A DNA stretch of 32,726 bases from Bacteroidales bacterium (GTDB lineage: Bacteria > Bacteroidota > Bacteroidia > Bacteroidales > Paludibacteraceae): NCBI GenBank assembly GCA_022777485.1, contig JALFGC010000101.1, forward strand, positions 1-32,726. Reading direction: 5' to 3'. This document shows positions 2,784 to 29,743 of the stretch, piece by piece (positions within the stretch are counted from its first letter, which is position 1; every line of letters starts with the position of its first letter). The notes beneath the pieces were generated by a model that saw only the letters and a program-made list of their open reading frames with translations, searched no databases and was not told the origin of the DNA. Position numbers and translations under genes: made by a program.

Positions 2784-3087
2784 TTTACAATTGGACAATT
2801 GACAATGATATAGCAATACTCTGTAAGAATCCTTAGAATCTCGTCCCGACAAGTCGGGATAAATAGAGCGTAGCGAGCAGGATATATAACACCTTGCTTC
2901 GGGCTTTGCCCTCGCAGAGAAAGAGAGGATTTTTGGCAGAGGCTGCCATTTTTTACAATTGGACAATTGACAATGATATAGCAATGCTCTGTAAGAATCC
3001 TTAGAATCTCGTGAGCGTAGCGAGCAGGATATATAACACCTTGCTTCGGGCTTTGCCCTCGCAGAGAAAGAGAGGATTTTGGGCAGA
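2784..3087. repeat. Duplicated intergenic cassette: copy A 2784-2940, copy B 2952-3087; copy A carries a 21-bp insertion with a CCCGACAAGTCGGG palindrome
   Basis: Both read tttacaattggacaattgacaatgatatagcaat(a/g)ctctgtaagaatccttagaatctcgt...gagcgtagcgagcaggatatataacaccttgcttcgggctttgccctcgcagagaaagagaggatttt. Extra cccgacaagtcgggataaata at 2845-2865 in copy A only. Confidence 0.93.
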
Positions 3088-3091
3088 ATTG

Positions 3092-3175
3092 TCCATTCGT
3101 AAATTGTCAGATTGTCAAATAGTAAATTGTCCAATCGTAAATTGTCAAATCCTAAATTGTCAGATTGTCAAATAT
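3092..3175. repeat. Degenerate TAAATTGTC(A/C)AAT(n) short-repeat array ending at the peptidase start codon
   Basis: ...gtaaattgtcagattgtcaaatagtaaattgtccaatcgtaaattgtcaaatcctaaattgtcagattgtcaaatat-atg; inverted copies (gacaattggacaatttacaattggacaattgac) at 2771-2803. Confidence 0.85.
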
Positions 3176-5284
3176 ATGGGGTTTATGAAAAAGGTATTCG
3201 TTTTTTTCTTTTCTATGGTGTTACTATCAAGTTGTGTGAAGACTGCAGATAGCGTGCTCACGGAGCAGGATGTGCAGGAGACCGTGGCGGCAGTGATGGC
3301 AGCGAAACCCGAGGCAGATAGTGCGCGGGTAGCACGCGGTGTGGCGCAGGCGGCGGCGCTGTGGCAAGCGCAGGATGGCACGGCAGAGGAGTTCAAGGCG
3401 TTTGCCGTGGCGCAAGTGGCGGCGAACGATACGGAGAGAGCCGCACTGATGGAGCAGTTGTCGCGTATATGGGAGCGGTGCTACGAGTCGGCGGATATGC
3501 TGTCGGTGGAGTTGCTCAAGCCTACGCAACTGACCAATGCCGCTACCCCGGGCGAGCCCGACTGGATTATGAGTGCCTATAGCCCCATGGCGCATTTCAG
3601 CGATGATATGTTTGCCAACAAGATGGCGTTTCTCACTATCTTGAACTTCCCGCACTATACTTTGGCGGAGAAGAATACGCTCGGCGGAGAATGGTCGCGC
3701 TTCGAGTGGGCTGCCGCCCGCATGGGCGATATGTTCACCACCCGCGTGCCTGCTCGTGTGGAGCAGGAGGTAGCACAAGCGTATGCCGACGCAGAGAACT
3801 ATATTGCTGACTACAATATCTATATGGGCAGCCTGCTCACGGAGGACGGGCGGCGGCTCTGGGACGAGGATGTGGTGCTGCTTTCCCATTGGAACCTACG
3901 CGATGAACTGAAAGCCAATTATGGTAAAGACACCCTCTCGCAAGAGCGGCAGGAGATGATTTTCAGGGTAATGCAACGCATTATCGACCAATCAATTCCT
4001 CGGGCGGTTATCAATGCACCATGCGACTGGAAACCCTATTCCAACACCTGTGCGCACCCTAATCGGGAACCAGATACGCGTTACGAGCGTATCTTGGGGC
4101 ATTTCCATGCCTATCAGCAGGTAGATGTTTATTGTCCGCAAGCCCCCACGGCTATCATCCGTAATTTTGAGGAGAGTATTGAGATGCCGATGGCGCAGAT
4201 AGATTCGCTCTTCCGCAGCCTGCTCTCTGCGCCGGAAGTGGCGGCTGTCGGCAAACTGATTGAGCAGCGATTAGGACGCGGCTTGCGCCCATATGATATA
4301 TGGTACGACGGCTTCAAAACGCGCGCGACTTTAGACCAAGATGCGCTGACGGAGCAGACCCGCCGTCGCTATCCCGACGCAGAGGCTTTCCGCAGGGATA
4401 TGCCGAGGATGTTGCAGACGATGGGCTTTGCGCCGGAGAAGGCAAGAGAGATTTGCAGCCATATCGTGGTGGAGCCTGCTCGCGGCTCGGGGCATGCTTG
4501 GCCCGCACTCGGACGCCAAGAGCCCGCTCGTTTGCGTACCCGAATAGGGCAGGGTGGTATGGACTACAAGGGCTACAACATCGCCGTGCATGAATTTGGA
4601 CACAATGTGGAGCAGGTGCTCGACCTATATGATATAGACTACTACACCCTCGCCGGTGTACCCAACACGGCATTTACCGAGGCGTCGGCTTTCCTCTTCC
4701 AAGCCCGCGACTTGGAGTTGCTGGAGAATAAGAAGTCTCCCACTAAGACCCTCTCTAACTCCCCCTTAAAGGGGGAGAATAGTTCCCTCCCTTTAAGGGA
4801 GGGGCAGGGAGGGTCTAAGTCTCCCTCTATGGGCGATGTAGAGGGTCTTGACTTGGACATCTTCTGGTCAATGTACGAGATTATGGGTGTGAGCCTTGTG
4901 GATATGCAGATGTGGCAGTGGCTCTATGCCCATCCGGAAGCCGATGCAATATCGCTGCGCGAGGCGACACTCCGCATTGCCAAAGAGGTATGGAATCAAT
5001 ACTACGAGCCTGTGTTAGGAGAGCACGACTGTACGCTGTTGGCTATATATTCCCATATGGTGGATGTGCCGATGTATTTGCCTAATTACCCGATTGGCAA
5101 TATCGTGCAGTTCCAGTTGAGTCAGCACTTGCGCCAATGCCCTACACCGCAGGCATGGGCGGAGGAATACACCCGTATCTACCAACAAGGTCGCCTAACG
5201 CCTAACCATTGGCTGCTACAGGCTGTAGGCGCTACGCCGAGCATAGACCCTATGTTGGAGGCAGTACGAAAAGCGTTGCAATAA
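3176..5284 (+). CDS. HEXXH zinc metallopeptidase, predicted lipoprotein (gluzincin-like; exact family uncertain)
   Basis: Lipobox signal MKKVFVFFFSMVLLSSC; YKGYNIAVHEFGHNVEQ (HEXXH) followed by PNTAFTEASAF (possible third ligand Glu, reminiscent of M3). Start 3176 or 3185 rather than 3011. Confidence 0.75.
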   Translation: MGFMKKVFVFFFSMVLLSSCVKTADSVLTEQDVQETVAAVMAAKPEADSARVARGVAQAAALWQAQDGTAEEFKAFAVAQVAANDTERAALMEQLSRIWERCYESADMLSVELLKPTQLTNAATPGEPDWIMSAYSPMAHFSDDMFANKMAFLTILNFPHYTLAEKNTLGGEWSRFEWAAARMGDMFTTRVPARVEQEVAQAYADAENYIADYNIYMGSLLTEDGRRLWDEDVVLLSHWNLRDELKANYGKDTLSQERQEMIFRVMQRIIDQSIPRAVINAPCDWKPYSNTCAHPNREPDTRYERILGHFHAYQQVDVYCPQAPTAIIRNFEESIEMPMAQIDSLFRSLLSAPEVAAVGKLIEQRLGRGLRPYDIWYDGFKTRATLDQDALTEQTRRRYPDAEAFRRDMPRMLQTMGFAPEKAREICSHIVVEPARGSGHAWPALGRQEPARLRTRIGQGGMDYKGYNIAVHEFGHNVEQVLDLYDIDYYTLAGVPNTAFTEASAFLFQARDLELLENKKSPTKTLSNSPLKGENSSLPLREGQGGSKSPSMGDVEGLDLDIFWSMYEIMGVSLVDMQMWQWLYAHPEADAISLREATLRIAKEVWNQYYEPVLGEHDCTLLAIYSHMVDVPMYLPNYPIGNIVQFQLSQHLRQCPTPQAWAEEYTRIYQQGRLTPNHWLLQAVGATPSIDPMLEAVRKALQ
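4733..4825. repeat. In-frame palindromic repeat element inserted in the peptidase CDS, flanked by 9-bp direct repeats AAGTCTCCC
   Basis: aagtctccc at 4733-4741 and 4817-4825; between them actaagaccctctctaactcccccttaaagggggagaatagttccctccctttaagggaggggcagggagggtct (75 bp). Terminal inverted AGACCCT/AGGGTCT; two internal palindromes centred on TTTAA/TTAAA. Confidence 0.88.
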
Positions 5285-28438: not shown

Positions 28439-29743
28439 ATGTATACTCCTGTTCCCGTCCTGCTGCTAACGGGTTATCTTGGCAGCGGAAAGACGACATT
28501 GCTCAATCGTATTCTCTCCAACACGGAGGGGATACGGTTTGCCGTTATAGTGAATGATTTAGGTGAGGTGAACATCGATGCCGACCTTATTCAAAAGGGT
28601 GGCGTGGTGAGCCAGCAAGACGACAACCTCGTGGCATTGCAGAACGGTTGTATCTGCTGCACGCTGAAGATGGACCTTATAGACCAGTTGCGCGACATCA
28701 TTAACATGAAGCGCTTCGACTATATCGTCATCGAAGCGAGTGGCATCTGCGAACCAGCACCGATTGCGCAGACTATCAGTTCGATGGCGACACTCGGTCC
28801 GCAGTATATCACCAACGGCATACCGCGTCTTGACAGCATCGTGACCGTGGTGGACGCGCTGCGCATGAGAGATGAGTTCAACAACGGCAACGCTCTGACA
28901 CGCGACGGACTTGAAGACGAAGACCTCGAAAACCTCGTAATACAGCAGATAGAGTTCTGCAACACGATACTTCTGAACAAGGCTGCGGAGGTGAGCGCTG
29001 ACGATCTGCGCAAACTCACCGAGATAATCCGCGCCATTCAGCCTAAAGCAGAAATCATACCATGCAACTACGGCGACGTAGACTTGGAGCGTCTGCTCAA
29101 CACCGGTCGCTTCAACTTCAACGAGGTGGCTACATCGGCTGCATGGATCAACGAGATTGAGAATCATCACGGCGATGAGGAGGATGACGACGATGAGGAG
29201 GAGGAGGAGCATGAGAACCATCATCACGACCATGAAGATGAAGATCATGAACATCATCATCACGACCATGAAGATGAAGAGCACGAGCACCATCATCACG
29301 ACCACGACTGCCATGGCGGTTGCGGACATCACCATCACCACGACCATGAAGGCGGCGAAGTGGAGGAGTATGGCATTGGCACGTTCGTATATTATCGCAG
29401 AAAGCCGTTCGACATGAACTTCTTCGACAACTTCGTGGCACGTCTGTTCCCGAAGAACGTCATTCGATGCAAGGGATTGTGCTGGTTCAAGGAAGAGCCC
29501 GACATGTGCTATCTCTTTGAGCAGGCAGGTAAGCAGATGGAGCTGAAAAATGCCGGACAGTGGTACGCCACAATGCCGAAGGACGAACTGCAGCAGATGC
29601 TCGAACGTGAAGAAGGACTGCGCAGAGACTGGGACGAGAAGTATGGCGACCGTATGCAGAAGCTCGTGTTCATCGGTCAGAAACTCGACAAAAAGACAAT
29701 AAAAGAACAGCTCGACATGTGTCTTACGGATGTAGAACTGTAA
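28439..29743 (+). CDS. COG0523/CobW-family P-loop GTPase with histidine-rich metal-binding region
   Basis: LLTGYLGSGKTTLLN (Walker A), NGCICCTL (CxCC), HHHDHEDEDHEHHHHDHEDEEHEHHHHDHDCHGGCGHHHHHDH, C-terminal CobW_C-like RCKGLCWFKEEPDMCYLFEQAGKQMEL. Confidence 0.93.
   Translation: MYTPVPVLLLTGYLGSGKTTLLNRILSNTEGIRFAVIVNDLGEVNIDADLIQKGGVVSQQDDNLVALQNGCICCTLKMDLIDQLRDIINMKRFDYIVIEASGICEPAPIAQTISSMATLGPQYITNGIPRLDSIVTVVDALRMRDEFNNGNALTRDGLEDEDLENLVIQQIEFCNTILLNKAAEVSADDLRKLTEIIRAIQPKAEIIPCNYGDVDLERLLNTGRFNFNEVATSAAWINEIENHHGDEEDDDDEEEEEHENHHHDHEDEDHEHHHHDHEDEEHEHHHHDHDCHGGCGHHHHHDHEGGEVEEYGIGTFVYYRRKPFDMNFFDNFVARLFPKNVIRCKGLCWFKEEPDMCYLFEQAGKQMELKNAGQWYATMPKDELQQMLEREEGLRRDWDEKYGDRMQKLVFIGQKLDKKTIKEQLDMCLTDVEL

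Follow-up and report, generated by a model that had tools for sequence, protein, structure and literature searches.

A metallopeptidase gene from a Bacteroidales bacterium (family Paludibacteraceae; GCA_022777485.1, contig JALFGC010000101.1) very probably contains one member of a dispersed family of non-autonomous palindromes of REPIN/BIME-like form, inserted in frame in a loop of the encoded protein and tolerated there; the factor mobilizing it would act in trans. The window, the whole stretch of 32,726 nucleotides that was analyzed, contains the following features at this locus.

3176 to 5284, plus strand: metallopeptidase gene, secreted or lipoprotein-like, with an MGFMKK...LLSSC signal and an HEFGH motif.
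4733 to 4745, plus strand: left AAGTCTCCC followed by ACTA; the 9-mer is the same as the start of the C' unit and is not a target-site duplication.
4746 to 4816, plus strand: dimeric palindromic element A-B', 71 bp, AGACCC...GGGTCT, with a terminal stem and two hairpins.
4746 to 4780, plus strand: unit A, AGACCCTCTCTAA plus hairpin CTCCCCCTTAAAGGGGGAG (4759-4777), encoding TLSNSPLKGEN.
4783 to 4816, minus strand: unit B, inverted (B'), hairpin CCCTCCCTTTAAGGGAGGG (4785-4803) plus GGGAGGGTCT; the plus strand encodes SLPLREGQGGS.
4817 to 4849, minus strand: decayed unit C, inverted (C'), AAGTCTCCCTCTATGGGCGATGTAGAGGGTCTT, of which the first nine bases form the right AAGTCTCCC.

The host peptidase matched no family in Pfam, NCBIfam or the PDB; its TEASAF sequence is the probable third ligand. 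The listed open reading frame starts at 3011 (GTG), but its opening 55 codons derive from upstream repeats. This spurious N-terminal extension is supplied by a near-perfect tandem duplication of ~150-170 bp (98-99%) at 2784-3100, immediately upstream of the gene. Arrays of a CAAATTGTC/TAAATTGTC repeat with a 15-bp pitch were found at 1885-1961 and 3077-3176, the latter being translated within the frame listed from 3011. The window also contains intergenic ~120-bp tandem repeats (91-94%) at 1480-1736 and, at 29157-29316, a 9-bp-pitch repeat in the 434-aa ORF 28439-29743; the stretch it encodes is rich in His, Asp and Glu and possibly binds metal.

The original prediction placed a 9-bp direct repeat at the edges of an inserted palindrome. 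Both copies of AAGTCTCCC were indeed found, at 4733-4741 and 4817-4825, and the 9-mer has no other occurrence in the window. The 84-bp distance from one copy to the other keeps the reading frame, which is open across the insert, and the two halves of the element are imperfect inverted copies of each other (27/34 identical), both as anticipated. The proposed extent of the inserted DNA was correct as to its AGACCC/GGGTCT inverted ends, but not as to a start at the edge of the direct repeat, as ACTA (4742-4745) intervenes on the left. The element consists of two inverted, related units of ~34 nt, each with a GC-rich hairpin at its end, separated by a short linker. The adjoining C' unit shared 31 of 35 positions with the consensus of C (2 flanking bases included), the runner-up place in the window reaching 21/35, and was also recovered independently at 4817-4849 by BLASTN. 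Because the right AAGTCTCCC opens this C' unit, the repeat-derived stretch extends to about 4733-4849. The predicted fold of the stretch is far better than that of shuffled sequence (z -3.8; 0/200 shuffles).

The possibility was considered that the element is MITE-like and was inserted by a classical DDE transposase, in which case AAGTCTCCC would be a 9-bp target-site duplication. An exact 9-bp direct repeat with its copies 84 bp apart and the inverted ends of the element are consistent with this explanation. However, the right copy is part of C' and the left copy lies 4 bp off the element, so the 9-mer was rejected as a duplication and, contrary to what had been proposed, is repeat sequence and not a mark of transposition. 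Flanking direct repeats were evaluated in 50 dimers and did not exceed those of shuffled sequences (1.54 vs. 1.29, a value equaled or surpassed by 35/500 shuffles). The 9-mer was unique to the window copy among these dimers, the next longest flank repeat being 5, and no target-site duplication of fixed length was found in the set. Insertion by a DDE transposase is thus very unlikely.

The ends of the element are sharp. In 50 dimers the boundaries read A/GACCC...GGGTC/T, with an A preceding GACCC in 38 and a T following GGGTC in 46; the two ends are fully complementary at the terminus, a match that drops off two bases beyond it, and the terminal GACCC and GGGTC are paired in all 35 independent dimers. 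Measured from GACCC to GGGTC, A-B' dimers are 66, 69, 72, 75 or 78 bases long, every one a multiple of three. A-C' dimers are 68 bases long, or 78 with a longer linker. The linkers are variable in sequence and constant in length within a class. Capture of host DNA was considered as the source of this variability and rejected, since linkers resembled their own flanks no better than in cross pairs, except at one locus (L161).

Intact peptidase orthologues in a set of 61 genomes from the genus and the order aligned with the window protein to about residue 575 and again from about residue 615, and none of them had an alignable peptide at the insert. The orthologues are typically exactly 28 codons shorter, and twenty-odd are without the insert. 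The insertion site is a loop of variable length directly after an RDLxLL stretch, and a single-sequence AlphaFold model, too poor to be informative (pLDDT 37), had the insert in coil between helices. Judged by these alignments, the element is an insertion into a protein loop, and the in-frame insertion that had been predicted was upheld. The expected 84-bp absence in relatives was borne out by the typical 28-codon shortfall, but a clean empty site with a single AAGTCTCCC was not found. The closest genomes are only about 60-65% identical in the peptidase protein, so an empty site for the window copy was not seen at the nucleotide level, and its exact boundaries and order of events are therefore deduced. 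When C' is counted as repeat as well, the host loop would be shorter than in all relatives, and an older part of the loop may therefore have given way to C'.

Ordinary low-complexity expansion of the loop, with no mobile element involved, would agree with the variability of this loop among orthologues. One orthologue (L020, genome G032) has another repeat-like peptide, KSQISNVKSQMSN, at the same loop. However, the inserted DNA is a multicopy palindrome common to unrelated genes and intergenic sites, and simple expansion is effectively refuted.

The copy number was determined by BLASTN against the bacterium's own genome assembly (1.97 Mb, 108 contigs, 90% complete), which returned 51 matches with a 93-bp query and 50 with an A-C' dimer, establishing the element as a multicopy palindromic repeat as had been supposed. 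The 46 fetched regions contained 74 distinct clusters, 19 of which were multi-unit. Units A, B and C have a related AGACCC head, after which comes a GC hairpin whose center is TTAAA-like. When genome contigs were searched with the exact A-unit pattern, at least 113 stretches of Bacteroidales MAGs carried the unit in nearly identical form; among the matches listed, the sources were rumen and gut MAGs labeled Prevotellaceae, Bacteroidaceae, Bacteroidales or Paludibacteraceae. The family, all copies of which are known from MAG assemblies, is on this evidence dispersed and multicopy, with an A unit that is nearly the same in other Bacteroidales. The statement that intergenic copies are common in Bacteroidota was right in that similar sequence is common, but many copies are intragenic. 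Detectable copies are few in the window's genus outside the own genome. The exact A-unit pattern gave 0 matches in IMG/VR contigs, phage and plasmid records contained no match to the element, and Rfam returned nothing above the gathering score, only sub-threshold chance hits.

The reading frame of intragenic clusters was called from codon usage on both flanks, and in-frame and out-of-frame clusters were compared with a null of one in three. All 16 intragenic clusters of the own genome were in the same phase and open and none was out of phase (P 2e-8), and at the loci of named relatives 49 were in frame and 2 out (P 2e-21). The error of the classifier was estimated from random 70-bp stretches, of which 741 were scored as in frame and 12 as out of phase. 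Intragenic copies that are retained are thus almost always in phase and open. Open reading frames of at least 250 aa contained 35 of the 74 own clusters, compared with 66% of random places, and 80 of 122 named clusters, compared with 74%; this deficit is expected if many intragenic hits are purged. Each orientation of the units checked has a single open frame, encoding short hydrophilic peptides (KTLSNSPLKGEN, KSPFKGDLEGL, SLPLREGQGGS).

The host genes are real: a Pfam domain was found in 19/20 own and 9/10 named open reading frames carrying inserts. They include dihydropteroate synthase (DHPS), a RecQ-like helicase, a Clp-type ATPase (ClpA/C-like), TrmO, a GltD/NfnA-like protein, class I and alanyl tRNA synthetases, a RecF/RecN/SMC-type ATPase, an ABC-F-like ATPase, GH97, porins and a UvrD-like helicase. 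In FolP/DHPS, a unit-A insert of exactly 13 codons lies right after the TPDSF motif; it was present in the own genome only and in 0/26 aligned orthologues. Two long frames of the own genome have repeats between domains. At L078:1646-2956 (contig C42), PcrB-like and deaminase domains are joined in one frame, and a three-unit repeat lies at the exact point where they meet; the pair are separate neighboring genes in several relatives and one open frame in others. At L087:1938-5339 (contig C108), a four-unit repeat stretch (aa 565-614) lies between the AcrB-like and TolC/OEP-like domains of a 1134-aa frame.

Another possibility is that the element is a canonical REP/REPIN of a RAYT (TnpA-REP) system, mobilized by the genome's own RAYT-like protein. 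The architecture is REPIN-like with no target-site duplication, in-frame copies inside genes are known for RAYT-linked REPs (PMC6006769, PMC3733652), and the genome encodes one RAYT-like HuH protein (C92:15903-16916), which was missed by the Pfam Y1_Tnp model and found with a profile made from relatives. In these relatives the HuH Y1 family comprises proteins of 330-400 aa with weak REP_Tyr_transpos matches. Such proteins are widespread in the genus (L120, L121, L123-L130) and have a conserved C-terminal domain (ISEGEKQI..ALREAG..GFP) that is barely touched by Pfam Y1_Tnp. The region C92:15546-17218 (L132) contains the 361-aa RAYT-like HuH frame, bordered on either side by arrays of a hairpin repeat of its own, CTTCTTCGTATTACGTCGGCTAGCTGCCGACATTCCC. 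However, the repeat that flanks the gene on both sides (TTCGTATTACGTCGGC...) differs from A, B and C and was found nowhere else in the genome by the search used, no A/B/C unit lies beside the gene, and the own RAYT was rejected as the mobilizer for this reason. At RAYT-like loci of other genomes, A/B/C units were present at 1/48 (0/20 in the genus and 1/28 among named genomes, ~700 bp from the match), and the units are without the GTAG/CGTC tag. No cognate RAYT flanked by A/B/C units was found in the own assembly, which is ~90% complete and may be missing one, and no mobilizer of the units was identified in the own genome or at the RAYT-like loci searched. Mobilization by the genome's own RAYT-like protein is accordingly improbable.

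The conservation of the hairpins was evaluated with RNAalifold in 29 dimers. Two hairpins were recovered, with changes on both sides at 4/15 pairs, and the counts per unit agreed; the stems of the hairpins are retained and show some compensatory changes, whereas the linkers vary. At insertion sites common to two species, the half of the element that had not been used for selection was 94% identical (323/342), compared with 86% (3709/4338) for the flanking gene; the associated P of 5e-7 is too optimistic because several pairs share a member, and the trend was the same at all sites compared. An earlier test at shared sites (third-position differences of 4% vs. 25%) was discarded as biased, the loci having been fetched by the exact unit-A pattern, and was repeated with the half that had played no part in selection. 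Between L143 and L175, a C-G pair of hairpin 1 has changed to T-A at the same site, a compensatory change.

At shared sites the element is thus more conserved than its flanks, which fits either selection on the hairpins or homogenization between copies. Purely neutral junk would not be expected to show this degree of conservation, which may be due to selection at the nucleotide level or to gene conversion. The element might accordingly work as a DNA or RNA structure, for example in mRNA stability, translation pausing, or nucleoid or repair binding, and be kept by selection at the nucleotide level. The higher identity at shared sites, the compensatory change and the retained stems favor such a role. 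However, the independent site pairs are few, the same picture would be expected from a recent spread or from gene conversion between copies, and the occurrence is patchy with few detectable copies in genus relatives. We regard a structural role as rather unlikely.

The reading we prefer remains that of a non-autonomous palindrome tolerated in a loop. A trans-acting enzyme would insert a unit or dimer to give a new copy, and would most plausibly be HUH/Y1-like, acting on single-stranded hairpin DNA and leaving no target duplication. Insertions that shift the frame, read into a stop or fall in the folded core would be purged. Those in loops and linkers would persist because the checked units have just one open frame in each orientation, and this yields short hydrophilic peptides. 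In the peptidase, a C' unit and an A-B' dimer would have accumulated in a loop that already tolerated changes in length, and the insert peptide is probably without a function of its own.

A broader interpretation, which we put forward tentatively and regard as possible though doubtful, is that these repeats represent a class of two-hairpin mobile elements that has spread horizontally in rumen and gut Bacteroidales, is independent of RAYTs and fitted to coding DNA, and has a structure conserved within host genes. The fit to coding DNA is suggested by the single open frame per orientation and by A-B' lengths that are solely multiples of three. If this interpretation is correct, the short linker peptides would be a recurrent source of protein variation, housekeeping enzymes included. 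In many species of Bacteroidales the family inserts loops in proteins with housekeeping functions (dihydropteroate synthase, tRNA synthetases, helicases, a Clp ATPase), and it offers natural multi-site material on how non-autonomous DNA becomes protein and how copies cross species. It also bears on whether intragenic hairpins are tolerated or selected. For annotation, such loops should be read as insertions and not as conserved domains.

Protein-coding palindromic repeats were described first from Rickettsia and later from a handful of REP-rich genomes. Claverie and Ogata, in 2003, reportedly described the Rickettsia palindromic elements as in-frame gene insertions. The AGACCC family is like them in being multicopy, palindromic, in frame in functional genes and absent from orthologues. 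The Rickettsia-like logic of the original prediction thus held, more broadly than supposed, given the in-frame counts of 16:0 and 49:2 and the absence of the insert from peptidase and FolP orthologues. In contrast to the Rickettsia elements, the family occurs in Bacteroidales, is built of separable ~34-nt hairpin units and has an A unit that is near-identical across many species. As far as is known the sequences are unrelated, and the likeness is one of kind with no homology claimed. Members of RPE-1, -4 and -6 lie in frame in functional genes and the family is also intergenic, according to Ogata 2002 as cited in PMC3733652.

The open-access papers searched, a scope that leaves out most subscription journals, contained no description of the AGACCC family or of in-frame palindromes of Bacteroidales or Prevotella. 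REPs form mosaic arrays without target-site duplication, some inside open reading frames such as repair genes, and intragenic copies are in frame in Opitutus terrae, Thauera and others (PMC3733652). A REPIN is defined as two inverted head-plus-hairpin units (PMC6006769), and AGACCC dimers resemble REPIN/BIME in being such a pair with sharp ends and no target-site duplication. The element is REPIN-like in form yet departs from REPs in two defining traits, as the tag is absent and no cognate RAYT was found. Unlike REP families with a GTAG/GTGG or CGTC tetranucleotide at the foot, the dimers examined have an AGACCC head, and neither GTAG nor CGTC is present in the units. REPs are mostly intergenic, whereas AGACCC copies lie inside long open reading frames in about half (own genome) to two thirds (named genomes) of cases. 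The in-frame REPs known from Cyanobacteria and from Bacteroidetes, the phylum of the window, lie in tnpAREP genes of subclass 2.4 (PMC6006769) and so in the transposase genes themselves, whereas the hosts of AGACCC copies are unrelated to transposases and often have housekeeping functions. The AGACCC family appears to be distinct from the recognized in-frame palindromic repeats.
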